In this document: positions 3,082 through 16,188 of the stretch, one piece after another
Layout: every line of letters begins with the position of its first letter
Numbering within the stretch: the stretch's first letter is position 1
Source of the DNA: a virus
Direction: 5' to 3' (one strand)
Length of the DNA: 64,000 nt
IMG/VR virus record: IMGVR_UViG_3300042937_000528
Location: 1-64,000 of that record
Translations under genes and position numbers: made by a program
Notes under the pieces: model-generated
The model's database searches: none
What the model was told of the DNA's origin: nothing
The model's input: the letters and a program-made list of their open reading frames with translations, nothing else

Positions 3082-4329
3082 ATGAAAATATTTGTTCAAA
3101 TTGCCGCTTATCGTGACCCCCAACTTATAGCAACTATCAAAAGTATGATAGAAAATGCTAAAAGACCTAAAAATTTAAGAATTGGTATTGCAAGACAATT
3201 TCATCCTGAAGACGGGTTTGATGACATGTCAGAGTACGAAAATGATAAAAGATTTAGAATCCTTAACATTCCTTATCAAGAATCAAAAGGTGTTTGTTGG
3301 GCAAGAAACCAAGTTCAACAACTATATCAAGGTGAAGAATATACACTTCAAATTGATTCACACATGAGATTCGCACCCAATTGGGATGATGAAATGATTA
3401 AGATGATTAAACAACTTCAAAAGAAAGGTCATGAAAAACCATTACTTACAGGATATGTATCATCTTTTGACCCCGACAATGACCCATCAGGGCGTATGCA
3501 AGAACCATGGAGAATGGCGTTTGACAGATTTATTCCTGAAGGTGCGGTATTCTTCCTACCTGAAACAATTCCAGGTTGGCAGAGCTTAACAGAACCTGTT
3601 ACATCTCGTTTCTATTCAGCTCACTACTGTTTTACATTAGGTCAGTTCTCAAAAGAAGTACAACACAACCCTGAATACTATTTCCACGGTGAAGAAATAT
3701 CAATTGCCGCTCGTGCTTATACTTGGGGTTATGATTTATTCCACCCACATAAAGTTTTGATTTGGCACGAATATACTCGTAAAGGTAGAACAAAACAATG
3801 GGATGATGACAAAGATTGGGGTAATAAAAACAGTCATTCACATTTTACCAATAGAAAATTATTTGGTATGGATGGTGAAAAACAAGAAGGTCATGACGGA
3901 CCTTATGGATTTGGACCTGTTAGGACATTAAGAGATTATGAAAAGTATTCAGGTCTTTTATTTGAAAAAAGAGCTGTCCAACAACATACCTTAGATAAGA
4001 ATTATCCACCAAATCCATACAACTTTGAATCTGAAGAAGAGTGGAAGAAAAACTTTGCTCAAGTATTTAAACATTGTATTGATATTGGTTTCTCACAAGT
4101 ACCTGAAAAAGATTATGATTTTTGGGTGGTTGCCTTCCACGGTGAAAATGATGAAACACTGAACAGAAAAGACGCTGATAAGGCAGAAATTGATAGAATG
4201 ATGAATGACCCTGATGGTTACTGTAAAGTATGGAGAGAATTCCAAACAGAACATAAACCAAAGTATTGGGTTGTTTGGCCACACTCAGTATCTAAAGATT
4301 GGTGTGAAAGAATAACAGGAAATTTATAA
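3082..4329 (+). CDS. GlcNAc-transferase-like glycosyltransferase (PF11397/GT60-type)
   Basis: 415 residues. The first 270 or so have the look of the 'Glycosyltransferase (GlcNAc)' family, whose known members include the Dictyostelium Skp1 hydroxyproline GlcNAc-transferase. Seen: N-terminal FVQIAAYRDPQL, GVCWARNQVQQLY, then LQIDSHMRFAPNWD, whose DSH is the DxD-type metal/sugar-nucleotide site, and YFHGEEISIAARAYTWGYD. The last 80 residues form an extra charged domain (FWVVAFHGENDE... to CERITGNL) that I do not recognise. It is the first gene of a five-gene tightly packed cassette, with 1 nt to the next gene. The family call is fairly sure. The substrate is unknown. Confidence 0.82.
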   Translation: MKIFVQIAAYRDPQLIATIKSMIENAKRPKNLRIGIARQFHPEDGFDDMSEYENDKRFRILNIPYQESKGVCWARNQVQQLYQGEEYTLQIDSHMRFAPNWDDEMIKMIKQLQKKGHEKPLLTGYVSSFDPDNDPSGRMQEPWRMAFDRFIPEGAVFFLPETIPGWQSLTEPVTSRFYSAHYCFTLGQFSKEVQHNPEYYFHGEEISIAARAYTWGYDLFHPHKVLIWHEYTRKGRTKQWDDDKDWGNKNSHSHFTNRKLFGMDGEKQEGHDGPYGFGPVRTLRDYEKYSGLLFEKRAVQQHTLDKNYPPNPYNFESEEEWKKNFAQVFKHCIDIGFSQVPEKDYDFWVVAFHGENDETLNRKDADKAEIDRMMNDPDGYCKVWREFQTEHKPKYWVVWPHSVSKDWCERITGNL

Positions 4330-5886: not shown

Positions 5887-6445
5887 TTTTTCTTTTCACA
5901 TCCTTTGTACATCTTTAGGACGAGAATCGTTAGGTCGTTTAATTGATAGTTTTGTTAATCAATTAAATGAAAATGATTATTTTACCATTGTATCGGATAA
6001 TAATCACGACTTTGTTGAGGGGGTGTTATCTACTTTTAATTTTAAATGTAAATTAAATCATATTAAAAATTTAAACGGTCCTGAAGGTAATTTTGGACAT
6101 CCATTGTTAAATAGACATATGAATACCTTAGACGGTGATTTTATAATGTTTGCCGATGATGATGATAGGTATGTTCCTGATGCATTTGAATATATTAGAA
6201 ATACTGTTACAGAAAAAAAATTATACATTTTTAAACATAAATGGGGTGGTACCGTTAATTGGGCTTCAAAACATTTTGAAGTCGGCAACATTGGTAAATG
6301 TGTTGGTGTAATACCAAACACCAAAAATTTACCGTTATTTCATGAGGATATTTTTGGAGATGGGATATTTTATTCTGACATATCAAAAATATTTGAATAT
6401 GAATTTATTGATAAAATTATTTATAAAGTTAGGGATACAGAATGA
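5879..6445 (+). CDS. Glycosyltransferase family 2-like protein
   Basis: 188 residues, shorter than most GT2 enzymes. Seen: N-terminal SFHILCTSLGRESLGRLIDS (strand plus helix), FTIVSDNN, and MFADDDDRYVPD at about residues 90-101. The last is the aspartate-rich DxD site of GT2 enzymes. The acceptor region is minimal, so it may act in complex with a neighbour or be a reduced enzyme. It overlaps the previous gene by 8 nt and the next by 4 nt (ATGA). Confidence 0.72.
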   Translation: MNNFSFHILCTSLGRESLGRLIDSFVNQLNENDYFTIVSDNNHDFVEGVLSTFNFKCKLNHIKNLNGPEGNFGHPLLNRHMNTLDGDFIMFADDDDRYVPDAFEYIRNTVTEKKLYIFKHKWGGTVNWASKHFEVGNIGKCVGVIPNTKNLPLFHEDIFGDGIFYSDISKIFEYEFIDKIIYKVRDTE

Positions 6446-8118
6446 GTAAAATAACATTAGTTACAGGTTTATGGAATATTAATCGTGATTCATTAACTGA
6501 AGGATGGTCACGTAGTTTTGAACATTATTTAGAAAAATTTGACCATCTTCTTAAGGTTGATAATAATATAATAATTTTTGGTGAACAAGAATTGGAATCT
6601 TTTGTTTGGGAAAGAAGAGATAGGTCAAACACCCAATTTATTGTTAGAGATAAAGATTGGTTTAAACAAACTGTTCCATACGATAAAATCCAACAAATTA
6701 GAACAAATCCTGATTGGTATAATCAAGCTGGATGGTTGGCAGACTCAACACAGGCAAAACTTGAATGGTATAATCCATTAGTTATGTCTAAAATGTTTTT
6801 GTTACATGATGCCAAAATTTTTGATAATTTTGATTCTGAATATATGTTTTGGATTGATGCTGGATTGGCAAATACTGTACATCCAGGTTATTTTACACAT
6901 GATAAGGTCTTAGAAAAACTTCCAAAGTATATTAATAAATTTAGTTTTGTTTGTTTCCCTTATGAGGCAAATAACGAAATTCACGGGTTTAATTTTGACG
7001 AAATTAATAAGATATCACAGACAAAGGTAGACATGGTTGCTCGTGGTGGTTTTTTTGGTGGACCAAAGAGTAGTATTAGTGATATAAATGGAATTTATTA
7101 TAATCTTTTAACATCCACATTGTCACAAAATTTAATGGGAACTGAAGAATCAATTTTTTCAATAATGTGTTATAAACATGCTGATTTGATTGATTATTTT
7201 GAAATTGAGTCAAATGGTTTATTTGGAAAATTTTTTGAGGATTTAAAAAATGACGATTTAAAAAAACAAAGTAAATTTAAAATGGATGCTGTTAATGATG
7301 ATTTAAGCCCTGATAATGTTGCCTTATATGTTATAACATTTAATAGTCCAAAACAATTTGAAACTTTAATGAATTCTATGGAAGTTTATGATATAGATTT
7401 TATTAACAAACCAAAAAAGTTCTTATTAGATAATTCATCAGATTTATCAACTACCGAGAAATACTCGGAACTTTGTGAAAAATATGGTTTTGAACATATT
7501 AAAAAAGATAATTTAGGTATTTGTGGTGGTAGACAATGGATTGCAGAACATGCTGAAGAAAATGAATTTGATTTTTATTTCTTTTTTGAAGATGATATGT
7601 TCTTTTACCCAAACAAAGGTGAGGTTTGTAGAAATGGATTTAACCGATACGTTGACAATTTGTATAAAAACATAATTGAGATTACAAAAAAATACCATTA
7701 TGACTTCATCAAAATGAACTATAGTGAGTTTTTTGGTGATAATGGAATACAATGGTCATGGTATAATGTACCGCAAGATTTTAGGGTAAAACATTGGCCA
7801 GAAAAACCAACATTACCCGTTCAAGGTCAAGACCCAAACGCACCAAAGACAAAATACAACAACATTAGAAATCACAAAGGAATTCCTTTTGTTGATGGTG
7901 AAATTTACTATTGTAATTGGCCACAGATAGTTACACGACATGGAAACAAAAAAATGTTCTTAGAAACAACATGGTCAAGACCGTTTGAACAAACTTGGAT
8001 GAGTTACATGTTCCAAGAAACAATTAAGGGAAATATTAAACCCGCATTGTTATTGATGACACCAACTGAACATGATAGGTTTGATTTTTATGATGGTTCA
8101 TTAAGAAAAGAATCTTAA
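6442..8118 (+). CDS. Two-domain glycosyltransferase: YibB-like domain + GT2-like domain
   Basis: 558 residues. Residues 1 to about 270 are HtrL/YibB-like: LVTGLWNINRDSL, NNIIIFGE, and FWIDAGLANTVHPGYF near residue 136, with a conserved Tyr/Trp-rich core. Residues from about 290 to the end form a GT2-like domain: ALYVITFNSPKQFETLMNS, KFLLDNSS, GICGGRQWIAEHA, and the metal site FFFEDDMFFYP near residue 381. Fusion of the two types in one chain suggests successive sugar transfers. It is the last gene of the cassette. Both domain calls rest on motif recognition only. Confidence 0.75.
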   Translation: MSKITLVTGLWNINRDSLTEGWSRSFEHYLEKFDHLLKVDNNIIIFGEQELESFVWERRDRSNTQFIVRDKDWFKQTVPYDKIQQIRTNPDWYNQAGWLADSTQAKLEWYNPLVMSKMFLLHDAKIFDNFDSEYMFWIDAGLANTVHPGYFTHDKVLEKLPKYINKFSFVCFPYEANNEIHGFNFDEINKISQTKVDMVARGGFFGGPKSSISDINGIYYNLLTSTLSQNLMGTEESIFSIMCYKHADLIDYFEIESNGLFGKFFEDLKNDDLKKQSKFKMDAVNDDLSPDNVALYVITFNSPKQFETLMNSMEVYDIDFINKPKKFLLDNSSDLSTTEKYSELCEKYGFEHIKKDNLGICGGRQWIAEHAEENEFDFYFFFEDDMFFYPNKGEVCRNGFNRYVDNLYKNIIEITKKYHYDFIKMNYSEFFGDNGIQWSWYNVPQDFRVKHWPEKPTLPVQGQDPNAPKTKYNNIRNHKGIPFVDGEIYYCNWPQIVTRHGNKKMFLETTWSRPFEQTWMSYMFQETIKGNIKPALLLMTPTEHDRFDFYDGSLRKES

Positions 8119-11680: not shown

Positions 11681-12796
11681 TTATACAACAGTAATTGGTA
11701 TTGGCATTGCTCTATATTTTAATTGCTTATTTAAATTTTCAGCAATAGAACCTTCTTTTTCCATTTGTTTTTCAGGACGTAATCTTTCTAATCTTTGTTG
11801 GAGTTCCGTCACTAAAGAAACTTTTTCATCTTTGGCTTCAGTTTGAAGAGACTGATAATCCATTGTTAATTCACTATCTGGTGTCTTCAAATTACCACTG
11901 AATTTACCTCTAACACGAGCTAAGGTCTCTTTACAGTATGCGGTGAACCATCTTCTAACCCATTGTTTTGCAGGGTCGTTTAAATCAATCCAATTTAATT
12001 CATCTAATGGAATGTCTGATGGTAATTTTACGATATCAGGATTATCTTTAAGACATTGGTCTCTGTCTGCATCAGTTGTATCATAATACCAATACCAAAC
12101 ACGACCTCTCATTAATTCATTATCACCAAAATCAAATCTACCACCAGGTGTATTATACAACATAACCGCTCTTTTTCCATCAGGAAGTGCTGTCACACGA
12201 TAACTAACATCGGGTTGCATAATTCTTCTTTTAAGATTTATGTCTTGTTGTCTTGCTAATACATCATAAGATGAGAACATGAAATATCCTCCACCGGCAC
12301 CACCTTGAGCAAACCCACCAGGTCCACCAAGTCCACCATAACCACCAAGACTTTGCATTGACCAAGGGTCAAAGAACATGTTATTTTGTTCTGCTGGTGA
12401 ATACCATAAAAGTTCGTTAATTTCACGACCCGCAGGTATTTCGTATATTTGTACGTTTTGTTGTAATTCAAAATAATCCTTCTTAAGAACCCAAGGACCT
12501 GAATTTTGAAGACCAACAATTTTAGAATAAGCGTAAGTGTATTGAGTTTCCCAATCAAGACTTCTTCTGATTAAAGCGTTTGCCACAGATTGGGTATCCA
12601 AATTCATACCATACAATGTTGTCCATTGTGATTCAATCAACCAATCATAAAGATATTGTGTATAGTCACCGATGGACAATTCAAGTAATGAATCCATCAT
12701 TTCAAATTCCAATTCAACAGCTCTTAATGGAGCCCCAAGTTGATTTAAAATCCTGTTATACAGTTTGGTTCTTTCTGGTTCAGCAATAACTACCAT
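11681..12796 (-). CDS. Neck protein, T4 gp13-like
   Basis: 371 residues. The N-terminal pattern RILNQLGAPLRAVELEFEMM...LSIGDYTQYLYD resembles gp13-type neck proteins, which begin with a Leu-Gly-x-Pro, Val-Glu-Leu and acidic/Tyr helix pattern. An odd glycine-rich insert (GGYGGLGGPGGFAQGGAGGG) lies near residues 150-170. The C-terminus is charged and helical. In T4, gp13 and gp14 close the head and join the tail. It stands on the minus strand, while the next tail-completion genes (16228 onward) are on the plus strand. It has a TATTTAT element 12 nt upstream. The call rests on pattern and context. Confidence 0.62.
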   Translation of the reverse strand: MVVIAEPERTKLYNRILNQLGAPLRAVELEFEMMDSLLELSIGDYTQYLYDWLIESQWTTLYGMNLDTQSVANALIRRSLDWETQYTYAYSKIVGLQNSGPWVLKKDYFELQQNVQIYEIPAGREINELLWYSPAEQNNMFFDPWSMQSLGGYGGLGGPGGFAQGGAGGGYFMFSSYDVLARQQDINLKRRIMQPDVSYRVTALPDGKRAVMLYNTPGGRFDFGDNELMRGRVWYWYYDTTDADRDQCLKDNPDIVKLPSDIPLDELNWIDLNDPAKQWVRRWFTAYCKETLARVRGKFSGNLKTPDSELTMDYQSLQTEAKDEKVSLVTELQQRLERLRPEKQMEKEGSIAENLNKQLKYRAMPIPITVV

Positions 12797-12823: not shown

Positions 12824-14368
12824 TTACAATTGATACAACTTGGCATCAATTGGGAAATAATAAACACCATCAATAATTTTTGTGTTTGAGTTATCAAAGA
12901 TTACCATGTCATCCAAACGTTTCATAAAAATCATCCAATTTGTTTGATATCTTTTAACATTTGCGGTACCATCAACTTTATACATGTCTTCACTTCTTGT
13001 TATATGACTGAATGGTTTTACCTGTGCAGTTTTTTCAACACCATCAACCATAATCTTAACATCCACACCCGTCATCATATCTTCTTTGTTTCCAAGTTCA
13101 CCAATACGAGTTACGTTTTCATCACCAAATTGTTTTTTAAGTTTTTCAACAACAGCATCTTCAGTTTTATTACCTTTGTCTGAAGTTACCCCCATCACAC
13201 TCATAATTGTTTTAAATGTTTCTGACTCTAATGAAAAAACTCTAAACTTAACTTTGTTTAATGTTTTTAACATTCTTGCCATTTCATTGACTTGTTCTCT
13301 TTGTGTTTTATCTGAAAAAATAATTGGTTCTTCACCTATTTTTGTAAGATATTTGTTTAAATCTTTTTTCAAGACACAAAACGCACTGTAATTTGTATTC
13401 AAATAATTGATAACAGACCTACCTTCACCTTCCAAATCATACACACCCGACATTTGTCCTTTAGCATATTCATCTTTGTTGTAAAATCTGTCAGCAAATG
13501 TTTCTTTTAAAATTTGCATTATTGCATTTTTGTATAGATTAAGAACATCACGGTTTGTATTAAATAATAATTTTGAGGCCATTTTGTCTTGAGTAGAACA
13601 AGGTTCACTCTTAACGGCTTCAGTTAAAAATTCTTTTGCGGTTGTAGATTCTTTTACCGTTTTGTCTAACTTTCTTGAAAGTTCAGATTCTACATAATCC
13701 CAATTCACAACTTTCCAAAAGTTTTTAATATATTCATCTCTTCTATTTCTATATCTTAGATAATATGCGTGTTCCCAAACATCTAACCCTAAAATTGGAT
13801 ATCCGCCTTGGTCAACAACATCCATAAGTGGATTGTCTTGGTTGGCGGTTGTCATAATCTTTAATGTTCCTCGTTTTGTAAGAACTAACCAACACCAACC
13901 TGAACCAAATCTATCTTTTGCTTGACCATCAAATTTCTTTTTAAAGTCAGATAAAGATGAAAAACTTTGATTAATTTTTTTGAGTGTTATCGGACCTGGT
14001 TTTGTTGTTTTTGGAGTTAACATTTTCCAAAACAATTGGTGGTTGTAAGCCCCACCCGCATTATTTCTGATGAACTTGTTGAAACTGTCAATTGTTTTAA
14101 CAATTTCTTCTAAAGTTAAATCTTCATCATCTTTTAATGCTCCATTTAATTTATCAACATAACCTTTGTAGTGTTTGTTGTAATGAACACTCATGGTTTC
14201 TGGGTCAATAAATTGTTTTAGTGCTGAATAAGAATAGGGTAATCTTTCTATCTTAATGTTTTTGGCTTCTGTGACAACTTTTCGTACTTTTTGTTCTTGT
14301 TGTCTTTTAATTTCTTTTTTTTGTAAATCTTCTTCAATTACTTCAATCCTATTTTTAAGATTCTTCAT
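12824..14368 (-). CDS. Mn-type superoxide dismutase fused to a PD-(D/E)XK-like nuclease domain, with prohead-protease-like sites
   Basis: 514 residues. Residues 1-34 are a charged helical leader ending V-T-E|A. Residues 43-229 are a full Fe/Mn superoxide dismutase: ligands H62 (VHYNKH), H110 (NNAGGAYNHQLFW), D196 and H200 (DVWEHAYYLRYRN). Gly-Gly before the second histidine and Q177 in ANQDNPLM are Mn-type signatures. A linker carries L248-T-E|A. The C-terminal part has NKTEDAVVEKL, GVDVKIMVDG and AQVKPF, which fits a restriction-endonuclease-like core with a QxK variant as in Mrr-type enzymes. T4 gp21 cuts (L/I)xE|A/G/S. The VTEA and LTEA sites therefore suggest a head-packaged polyprotein. 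SOD is sure, the nuclease likely, packaging inferred. Confidence 0.88.
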   Translation of the reverse strand: MKNLKNRIEVIEEDLQKKEIKRQQEQKVRKVVTEAKNIKIERLPYSYSALKQFIDPETMSVHYNKHYKGYVDKLNGALKDDEDLTLEEIVKTIDSFNKFIRNNAGGAYNHQLFWKMLTPKTTKPGPITLKKINQSFSSLSDFKKKFDGQAKDRFGSGWCWLVLTKRGTLKIMTTANQDNPLMDVVDQGGYPILGLDVWEHAYYLRYRNRRDEYIKNFWKVVNWDYVESELSRKLDKTVKESTTAKEFLTEAVKSEPCSTQDKMASKLLFNTNRDVLNLYKNAIMQILKETFADRFYNKDEYAKGQMSGVYDLEGEGRSVINYLNTNYSAFCVLKKDLNKYLTKIGEEPIIFSDKTQREQVNEMARMLKTLNKVKFRVFSLESETFKTIMSVMGVTSDKGNKTEDAVVEKLKKQFGDENVTRIGELGNKEDMMTGVDVKIMVDGVEKTAQVKPFSHITRSEDMYKVDGTANVKRYQTNWMIFMKRLDDMVIFDNSNTKIIDGVYYFPIDAKLYQL

Positions 14369-14372
14369 AAGG

Positions 14373-14411
14373 TCGGCTTTTATTAATGTTTATTGATTAT
14401 AAATAAGCCGA
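14373..14411 (-). promoter_or_regulatory. Inverted repeat enclosing TATTTAT upstream of the SOD fusion
   Basis: TCGGCTT at 14373-14379 is the perfect inverse of AAGCCGA at 14405-14411. On the minus strand the repeat brackets a TATTTAT element (14399-14405) 30 nt before the SOD start. No T-run follows the stem, so an operator or mRNA hairpin is more likely than a terminator of the helicase gene upstream. Confidence 0.45.
14399..14405 (-). promoter_or_regulatory. TATTTAT putative late promoter element for the SOD fusion
   Basis: Minus-strand GCTTATTTATAATC, 30 nt before the SOD fusion start. Its presence groups the SOD fusion with virion genes rather than with replication genes. Confidence 0.55.
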
Positions 14412-14418
14412 AGTTTGA

Positions 14419-16188
14419 TTATCGCCTCCAATTATTTATAAGTTCCAAAATTTCTTGAACATAATCACCGTTGTCTACCTTATCACCCATCACGGTTTCA
14501 AAGATGTCTTTCTTCTTTTTGAGTATGTCATAGATGATTCCCTCCACAGTATTGTCAAAAATTGGGTAATAAACTAACACATTATTTTTTTGTCCATAAC
14601 GGTAACTTCTATCTTCTGCTTGGGAGTGGTCGGATGGTAAAAACGATAAATCATTCATAACAACGGCTTCACCAGCTGTTAATGTAATACCAACACCTGC
14701 GGCTTTTATATTTCCGACAAACACCATAACATCTTCTTCGTTTTGAAAACGGTCAACAGACATTTGTCTTTCTTTTTGTGACATTTGACCATCAAGTCTA
14801 ACCGCCTTTTTTCCAAAATGTTCCAATATCATCTCCAAAGTTTTGGTGAAGTTAGTAAAGACAATCACTTTCTTACCTTGTTCCACAATGTTTTCACAGA
14901 TTTCAATTGTTGACGCAACTTTTTCTTCAGCAATCACCTGTCTTACTTTTGTAAGTTTGGTGAATTGAAGGGTTAGTGAATCGGACTCACCATTTTTATC
15001 GTACCAATCATAATATTCACCCATTAGGGCTTCATATTCTTTTGATTTTAATCTTAAGTAAACGGGTGTGATAATTTTATCAGGTAAATCTAAGACATTT
15101 TCTTTTAATCTTCTTAGAACTAAAGGTGCTGTTCGGTCTCTTAACTCTTCTAAGTTGGATGCTCCACTAACATTCCAAATTTTTCTTCTTCCTGCTTGGA
15201 ATTGAAAACCATTACAATACCTTTTGACGTATGCCATCCAATTCTTGGCTACAGGACATTCAATCAAGTTTAACAAATTAAAATAATTGATTGGTCTTGA
15301 AGTGATTGGTGTACCTGTTAACAACCAAAGTCTATCAACATTGGACACAAAGTCATTAATTAACTTGGTTCTTTGTGCTTGTTTGTTTTGAATGTAATGT
15401 GCTTCATCAATAATCACCAAATCAAACTTTGTTTTTAATAAAACAGAATCTGATTTCTTTTTTTCATCGTGAAAGTTTTTAATAATGTCATAGTTGATGA
15501 TTATAAAATCACCATCTTCCCATTTTTTACCTTCAATGATTGATGTTGGTTTATTTGAATAGTTTTCAATCTCACGTTGCCAGTTAATCTTCAAAGATGC
15601 TGGACAAATAATTAATACTTTCTTTGCTCCCGTTTCCAAAGCGGCAATAATGGTTGAAGTTGTTTTACCCAAACCCATATCATCGGCAAGAATAAACTTT
15701 TTATTTTCAACCAAAGATTTAATAGCTTCTTTTTGGTGTTCAAGTGGTGGACGGTGAGAATACTTTTCATAATCAATTACCACATCCTTAACTTTATTGT
15801 CTTTTATCAAAGCAACCTTTGGAATCCAAAAGTCGTACACTTGTTCTGAATCAAAATATTTTCCCCAAATATGGTAGGCGGTATCTTTTTCAACCAAAAG
15901 TTTTTCAACATATACTCTTGTTGGAACAGATGAAAGTAATTTATCATTGGCAATTTTTTGTGCAAAATATGAATCAAGTTCAACCCACTTCTTGGCAACT
16001 TTTGGAGCCATTTCGTGATAATTTATAATGTATTCTGCTTGGGCTCGGGTTGGATAGAACTTTTTGTTATCAATCTGTTTTTGTCTTAAACGTATGATAT
16101 AATTATTGGCACCCTGATACGTCTCTAATAAATCAAGAGCCTTTCTTTCTAACACAGAGACATTATATGCGTTTTCAGTATTTTCCAA
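14419..16188 (-). CDS. SNF2-family helicase/ATPase (superfamily 2)
   Basis: 589 residues. A short N-terminal domain is followed by the two RecA-like lobes: Q-like LEHQKEAI, Walker A DDMGLGKT near residue 168, motif II DEAH, motif III WLLTGTP, motif IV region KKVIVFTNF, and motif VI SQAEDRSYRYGQ. The compact layout resembles SMARCAL1/HARP-type annealing helicases and the phage SNF2 helicases near replication genes. A role in fork remodelling or recombination is likely. The frame starts at TTG 16188. No upstream ATG is in frame, and the next Met is residue 55, inside the conserved region, so TTG is preferred. It diverges from the 16228 gene across 39 nt. Confidence 0.88.
   Translation of the reverse strand: MENTENAYNVSVLERKALDLLETYQGANNYIIRLRQKQIDNKKFYPTRAQAEYIINYHEMAPKVAKKWVELDSYFAQKIANDKLLSSVPTRVYVEKLLVEKDTAYHIWGKYFDSEQVYDFWIPKVALIKDNKVKDVVIDYEKYSHRPPLEHQKEAIKSLVENKKFILADDMGLGKTTSTIIAALETGAKKVLIICPASLKINWQREIENYSNKPTSIIEGKKWEDGDFIIINYDIIKNFHDEKKKSDSVLLKTKFDLVIIDEAHYIQNKQAQRTKLINDFVSNVDRLWLLTGTPITSRPINYFNLLNLIECPVAKNWMAYVKRYCNGFQFQAGRRKIWNVSGASNLEELRDRTAPLVLRRLKENVLDLPDKIITPVYLRLKSKEYEALMGEYYDWYDKNGESDSLTLQFTKLTKVRQVIAEEKVASTIEICENIVEQGKKVIVFTNFTKTLEMILEHFGKKAVRLDGQMSQKERQMSVDRFQNEEDVMVFVGNIKAAGVGITLTAGEAVVMNDLSFLPSDHSQAEDRSYRYGQKNNVLVYYPIFDNTVEGIIYDILKKKKDIFETVMGDKVDNGDYVQEILELINNWRR

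Follow-up and report, generated by a model that had tools for sequence, protein, structure and literature searches.

A minus-strand gene in the viral DNA analysed here (64,000 nucleotides, hereafter the window) encodes in one chain of 514 residues a leader, an Fe/Mn superoxide dismutase (SOD) and a probable PD-(D/E)XK nuclease, and we think it likely, on balance, that the product is a head polyprotein which the prohead protease cleaves and from which both SOD and nuclease are packaged and delivered. This SOD-nuclease gene family is widespread in uncultured giant phages and directly testable. In the proposed mechanism, whose timing, proteolysis, packaging and injection we infer, as we do the activity of either enzyme, the identity of the host and any benefit to the phage, the polyprotein would be expressed late and its 34-residue leader would bring it into the prohead core, where a Peptidase_S77 protease would cut after three L/I/V-x-E sites (E34, E240 and E250) and free, within the same head, a Mn-SOD of ~206 residues and a 264-residue nuclease of the PD-(D/E)XK type. 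Both would then stay associated with the DNA and be injected along with it into the next cell; the SOD may remove superoxide around the DNA, either while still inside the virion or soon after infection begins, and the nuclease may cut host, competing or branched DNA. Joint packaging and injection of the two enzymes, with the SOD as a possible guard against an oxidative burst, had already been put forward in a preliminary description of the gene, whose mechanism comes out partly supported and, in our judgement, rather probable.

The extent and content of the gene (Table 1) were also given correctly in that description, and only its strand had to be changed to minus: that strand holds the 514-codon frame, and a plus-strand translation of the same interval was rejected for its stops throughout. 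We counted 460 full-length relatives, a figure that possibly includes stand-alone SODs because some of the search patterns lie in the SOD part, and the C-terminal part was present in 548 of 563 stretches. The 119 unique family proteins considered are a sample (the best 80 per scan), from which conservation was read in 46 non-redundant SOD-containing relatives and in 62 non-redundant proteins with and without SOD. One of 47 SOD-containing rows (L421) was left out, its chosen start being past the leader (its upstream frame reads LLTE/M, where the slash, here and below, marks the proposed cut), and the site counts over the 46 rows include four without matching text anchors. A probable family member, judged by name and length, is already deposited in UniProt as A0A6J5L953, 'superoxide dismutase [uncultured Caudovirales phage]', of 501 aa; its C-terminal structure is near-identical (TMq 0.93, 32% identity), and its record name covers the SOD alone, with the nuclease part unmentioned. 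In another relative (L162, IMGVR_UViG_3300001282_000822) the SOD and nuclease halves are in different frames, with the break in the linker before FLTE/A, which is either an assembly error or a true frameshift.

Table 1. Features of the SOD-nuclease locus in the window (positions of the window; residues of the 514-aa protein).
Feature	Position	Strand	Basis or remark
Downstream neighbour: neck / head-tail adaptor protein	11681..12796	-	phrog_211, E 3.3e-10
Leader-SOD-nuclease gene, 514 aa	12824..14368	-	ORF, Pfam, full-length relatives
PD-(D/E)XK-like core, ~residues 395-514, with E403, D436, Q449-x-K451	12827..13186	-	VIA-align, residue conservation
C-terminal piece 251-514: helical part + PD-(D/E)XK-like domain	12827..13618	-	AlphaFold2, fold matches
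Spacer 241-250, bounded by proposed sites E240/S241 and E250/A251	13619..13648	-	
Mn-type superoxide dismutase, proposed mature piece 35-240	13649..14266	-	Pfam match 40-228, solved relatives, ligands
Leader (residues 1-34, last four V-V-T-E34), a proposed propeptide for capsid targeting	14267..14368	-	
TATTTAT element upstream of the SOD-nuclease gene	14399..14405	-	Probable late promoter element
Upstream neighbour: DNA helicase	14419..16188	-	phrog_62, E 3.5e-114

The Pfam families Sod_Fe_C (E 5.6e-39, 132.8 bits against a cut-off of 20.9) and Sod_Fe_N (E 1.2e-20, 74.2 bits against 27) together span residues 40-228, and the best solved relatives of this part are Fe/Mn SODs, many of them named Mn SOD. 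The four metal ligands pointed out beforehand (H62, H110, D196 and H200) and the Mn-type signatures (the GG before H110, and Q177) are all present, and every one of these residues, G105 and G106 included, is invariant in 46 of 46 non-redundant SOD-containing relatives. The assignment to the Mn type is made from GG105-106 together with Q177.

Two prohead-protease-like sites, V32-T-E34/A35 and L248-T-E250/A251, had been described around the SOD, and both are as stated, with the hydrophobic-x-Glu part kept in 45 or 46 of the 46 relatives. At the first, E34 is found in all 46, and residue 32 is always L, I or V (L or I in 42, V in 4, the window having V); at the second, E250 and an L, I or M at 248 are each found in 45. 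Moreover, the linker holds a third site, with E240 and an L, I, V or M at 238 both present in 46 of 46. Mean pairwise identity among these relatives is 30% over the other linker columns and 33% over the leader, whose length is 34 residues in the window and 24-41 (median 30) in the 46. The published motif of the T4 protease gp21 is L/I-X-E, as given in the excerpted text of PMC9026906. The stricter form of the gp21 rule invoked in the preliminary description holds for its hydrophobic-x-Glu half and only partly for the Ala, Gly or Ser that should follow, which is found in 15 of 46 after E34 (Met in 28, Ala in 14), in 37 of 46 after E240 (Ser in 35) and in 34 of 46 after position 250 (Gly in 22, Gln in 11, Ser in 9). 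As the sequence MKKIGIEKLPY resembles a natural SOD start, the cleavage site may be the point immediately after which the SOD was acquired. The predicted 34-residue leader and 264-residue C-terminal part stand, and the number of sites and the length of the free SOD had to be revised: instead of ~216 residues from two sites, cuts at 34 and 240 would give ~206 (35-240) plus a 10-residue spacer, and several of the best solved relatives have 199-208 residues. A single relative (L063) is without Glu at 250, and there E240 would still free the SOD. In the full-length model (pTM 0.50, the domain arrangement being without confidence), pLDDT below 50 in runs of at least three residues is confined to 29-35 and 239-248.

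A gp21-like protease, which the proposed cleavage calls for, was found in related records: Peptidase_S77 (PF03420, the gp21 family) scores above cut-off in 7 of 15 SOD-containing ones, and in that of G001 the protein also matches phrog_207, a head maturation protease family. One of the seven records (G012) shares 99.99% identity with the window across 19,833 bases, and its protease therefore belongs to the phage of the window, whose own 67.7-kb record, a fragment, gave no protease match and nothing in a phrog_24 search. Peptidase_S77 was not found in 8 of the 15 SOD-containing and 9 of 10 SOD-less records, which may be fragments; the SOD-less record that carries it is G016. Near the protease lies the major capsid protein (phrog_138 in G001), which reads LINE/A with the Glu at position 60 in G001, G002, G012 and G016, presumably the point where a T4-like capsid propeptide ends. 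The SOD-nuclease gene is far from this cluster: in G001 it lies at 53 kb, and the cluster at 105-114 kb.

The SOD itself is absent from 20 of the 119 unique family proteins, or 15 of 62 after removal of near-copies. Ten of these 15 start with MKNTENK and read like MKNTENKVNLIIEEIKKNETDRKVTLVLSE/SKAEKC, with a leader like that of the SOD-containing proteins placed directly before the nuclease, and a hydrophobic-x-E/S, T or G just before the nuclease is kept in 14 of the 15, the exception being L208 with STE/K. The leaders of L208, L324 and L330 are ~14 residues long. In L344 the leader, SINE/M and SIISE/G are all kept, and the SOD is cleanly missing, in frame, between the first and last site. 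A tree of the nuclease part, rooted by two outgroup sequences on very long branches, nests the SOD-less rows within the SOD-containing ones and requires at least two changes, which suggests that the SOD was lost at least twice, with leader, site and nuclease retained; the opposite order, a SOD added late to a bare nuclease, is unsupported in the sampled tree, given this nesting. No SOD was found elsewhere in ten SOD-less records (nine pieces of 19-61 kb and the 308 kb of G016), and the SOD-containing controls G001 and G002 have one SOD each, namely the fusion. As leader, site and nuclease are kept without the SOD, the lasting unit would be leader plus nuclease, and a leader that stays while the SOD is optional would not be there for the SOD alone.

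The gene also carries an upstream TATTTAT, 37 nt before its ATG, and in each of the 27 relatives tested the same element stands no more than 60 nt upstream of the family gene. The window has 14 copies that lie less than 60 nt ahead of an open reading frame of at least 100 aa, where 0.58 are expected; they precede the neck, sheath, tube, one baseplate and several unnamed genes, as well as a DnaB-like helicase gene and a glycosyltransferase-like gene, and no copy stands in front of those for DNA polymerase, SSB, the UvsX-like recombinase, the exonuclease and ribonucleotide reductase. Judging from these gene classes, TATTTAT is probably a late promoter element. Its earlier designation as virion-type fits with the structural genes and not with the helicase and glycosyltransferase-like ones. 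A possible hairpin, CGGCTT ... AAGCCG, surrounds the element in the 5' untranslated stretch (window 14374-14410, minus strand). Two glycosyltransferase-like genes lie near the DNA polymerase gene (window 3082-4329 and 6442-8118; phrog_24687 and phrog_842, the latter a family of HMC glucosyltransferases) and perhaps have a role in DNA modification. Around the gene, the order helicase, family gene, neck protein recurs in 9 of 9 loci checked, five of them without SOD, with the neck gene being the next gene of known kind in all nine and L062 having ~1.1 kb extra before it. This neighbourhood bears on a different account, namely that of an uncleaved bifunctional enzyme that stays unpackaged in the infected cell, its SOD guarding phage DNA or replication enzymes and its nuclease degrading host DNA or processing that of the phage. 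The helicase gene does adjoin, and the presence of TATTTAT before the DnaB-like helicase gene leaves a virion role unproven by the element. We nonetheless regard an uncleaved enzyme as unlikely, as it does not account for three protease-type sites around the SOD, each conserved separately although the linker varies, for a leader and site that persist where the SOD is absent, or for a model that places the domains with so little confidence.

Concerning the nuclease, the 264 residues after E250 give nothing above chance in Pfam and PHROGs, where matches to GLUCM-like_C, TatD, NuiA and others were below threshold and were taken as chance. A profile of this part against PDB sequences gave nothing convincing (best E 0.052), and among GTDB genomes 70 pattern matches yielded no confirmed relative. 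The PD-(D/E)XK-like pattern noticed at the outset (TEDAVVEKL, GVDVKIMVDG and AQVK) is present in full, and the predicted structure of the C-terminal part points to the same fold: with the AlphaFold2 model (pLDDT 89, from an alignment of 23 sequences), Foldseek against the PDB returned the homing endonuclease I-Ssp6803I in its top four rows (best E 2.6e-3), and VIA-align placed the resolvase Hjc first (Z 8.5, rmsd 3.4, 101 aligned residues), with NhoI, I-Ssp6803I and Eco15I also among its first ten rows, a moderate match according to the tool's own note that Z 7-8 is also reached by models without a clear match. The aligned ranges fall between model residues 139 and 259, corresponding to roughly 395-514 in the full chain. 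The titles of rows 1-23 (Z 8.5 to 4.9) all name a resolvase, a restriction or homing endonuclease or SPARDA; row 24 we take to be RecU under a different title. Four residues, E403, D436, Q449 and K451, do not vary in any of the 62 relatives, whether these carry the SOD or lack it, and stand in the order E403, D436, Q449-x-K451 expected for this fold. Q449 takes the place of the D or E of the canonical motif, a replacement that makes nuclease activity of the C-terminal part putative; such QxK variants occur in Mrr-type enzymes. From the modelled fold, then, the domain is a probable PD-(D/E)XK nuclease, which differs from the Hjc resolvases, I-Ssp6803I and NhoI/Eco15I, of the same fold over ~395-514, in having QxK for (D/E)xK and an additional helical part, 256-394, for which no matching family or fold was found.

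Several distant relatives of this domain deserve a record. The order E, D, QxK was seen by eye in homologs from G001 and G002, which are diverged SOD-less paralogs (G001:178526-179605 and G002:118104-119060, the latter also L140:4104-5060), and in a 290-aa open reading frame without SOD in a 735-kb uncultured phage (L227:3743-4615). The G002 paralog has a short leader, MKITISE/G, and sits between the prohead protease and a presumed scaffold gene. A protein of 1113 aa from an uncultured marine phage (BFVD A0A8D9CCA0) covers most of the C-terminal model (TMq 0.84).

Since Holliday junction resolvases are among the closest folds, the nuclease may serve to process the phage's own DNA. In one such account it would act late in infection, as a Holliday-junction resolvase or in packaging, standing in for T4 endonuclease VII and working in the prohead or at the portal, with the SOD riding along and no delivery to the host. 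Hjc indeed heads the structure list, and the endonuclease VII family stays below cut-off in three large relatives (20 against 23.6 bits in G002), the control genomes behaving likewise. Restriction and homing endonucleases, however, reach Z 7.3-7.6 in VIA-align, about equal to Hjc, so the fold does not choose the function, and a resolvase would leave the SOD and the two linker sites unexplained. We hold this account to be improbable too.

Leaders ending in a similar site are not restricted to the SOD-nuclease protein. In a scan of proteins of at least 80 aa for [LIV][TSN]E[SAG] with the Glu at residue 6-10, G001 has 15 of 316, G002 24 of 321 and G016 16 of 333, against expectations from the remaining proteins of 0.7, 1.2 and 1.1, respectively, counts that are inflated by paralogs and do not represent independent events. 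These short leaders (found in L118-L133 of G001, L134-L150 of G002 and L469-L485 of G016) read MKKIIRLTESDL, MKIIISESQ or MKYLITESK, often in clusters of small genes; as shared examples, MKKIIRLTE/SDL, MKIIISE/SQ and MKYLITE/SK show where the cut would fall. Of ten such proteins scanned, eight match nothing in Pfam at E <= 0.01, another has a weak DUF4795 match, and one a weak DHH match (22 bits against a cut-off of 28.1) and is not an obvious head protein. TATTTAT is enriched before their genes in G001 (9 of 15 against 74 of 301) and G002 (19 of 24 against 79 of 297), and not significantly in G016 (7 of 16 against 84 of 317, p = 0.15). The short leaders strikingly resemble the short propeptides of the T4 internal proteins and, going by sequence, are possible capsid-targeting leaders. 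This would amount to a T4-like, much larger delivery system, in which the S77 protease matures the SOD-nuclease cargo and trims ~15-24 small head-packed proteins per genome, a proposal to which we give a little less than even chances; if true, the host would receive from the virion an antioxidant and an enzyme that cuts DNA, along with effectors that differ from phage to phage.

A single site kept in two genomes is weak evidence, as hydrophobic-x-E-[AGS] is conserved at 67 sites in 160 G001/G002 ortholog pairs, and the case for cleavage, made from sequence, rests on conservation over many relatives. That the hydrophobic-x-Glu positions are instead structural, at helix ends or dimer contacts, is a view helped by this frequency elsewhere, by the residues that relatedness alone preserves and by the varying residue after the Glu, and it is nonetheless very improbable, as the model is at its least confident in both site regions and the three sites obey the same rule as the capsid protein and the short-leader proteins.

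With regard to the carriers of the polyprotein gene, 74 of the best 80 of 580 SOD relatives in GTDB genomes, a pattern-limited set, were placed in Bacteroidota by title, with phyla assigned from the genus names. The large terminase has only distant relatives in the phage collection, the top cultured phage being Flavobacterium phage immuto with 28% identity. The host is thus likely a member of Bacteroidota, and T4-related jumbo phages are the best explanation for the phages carrying the gene.

Stand-alone Fe/Mn SODs are known from records filed as phage, such as PA5oct, Callisto and MW462191; they share the same kind of SOD, but none of 28 records covers 80% of the query. Among open-access PMC articles, searched by titles and the starts of abstracts (the best 25 of 4,567 and the best 15 of 96), we found no report of a phage SOD-nuclease fusion or of a packaged phage SOD. 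One of the closest parallels is offered by the internal proteins IPI, IPII and IPIII and by Alt of T4, which have a capsid targeting propeptide cut by gp21, just as the present protein has a leader ending in L/I/V-x-E and its phages a gene of the gp21 protease family. According to excerpts of the T4 literature, the propeptides of the internal proteins are cleaved and comprise 10-19 residues, and fusion to them also brings a nuclease into the head (PMC9026906; PMC3012670). In comparison, the polyprotein described here has two enzyme domains per chain, two further internal sites and a longer leader of 24-41 residues. Given that longer leader and a virion presence that is a prediction, we do not class it as a T4-type internal protein.

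Polyvalent proteins such as DdrB of P1 are described, in the consulted portion of PMC5512222, as carrying several effector domains per chain, being processed, being delivered at invasion and often having a peptidase domain of their own; the word 'superoxide' is absent from the main text of that paper. No peptidase domain was found in the SOD-nuclease protein at E <= 1 in Pfam or PHROGs, and its cutting, unlike theirs, is assigned to the prohead protease. The Cu/Zn SOD of chlorovirus PBCV-1 (A245R) is expressed late and packaged into virions; its authors associate it with lower superoxide levels in infected cells, and the excerpted account leaves a nuclease unmentioned (PMC7019647). Both are SODs of large DNA viruses, A245R belonging to the Cu/Zn family and to a virus of a eukaryotic host. 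If the proposed mechanism is true, an antioxidant and a nuclease would share the head of a phage as one precursor split by the capsid protease, which makes it testable whether superoxide hinders phage entry or virion survival, and the leader rule would offer a way to predict delivered proteins across many uncultured phages. Altogether, the family would then give bacterial viruses a counterpart to the SOD packaged by PBCV-1 and would bring a polyprotein strategy into a T4-type head.
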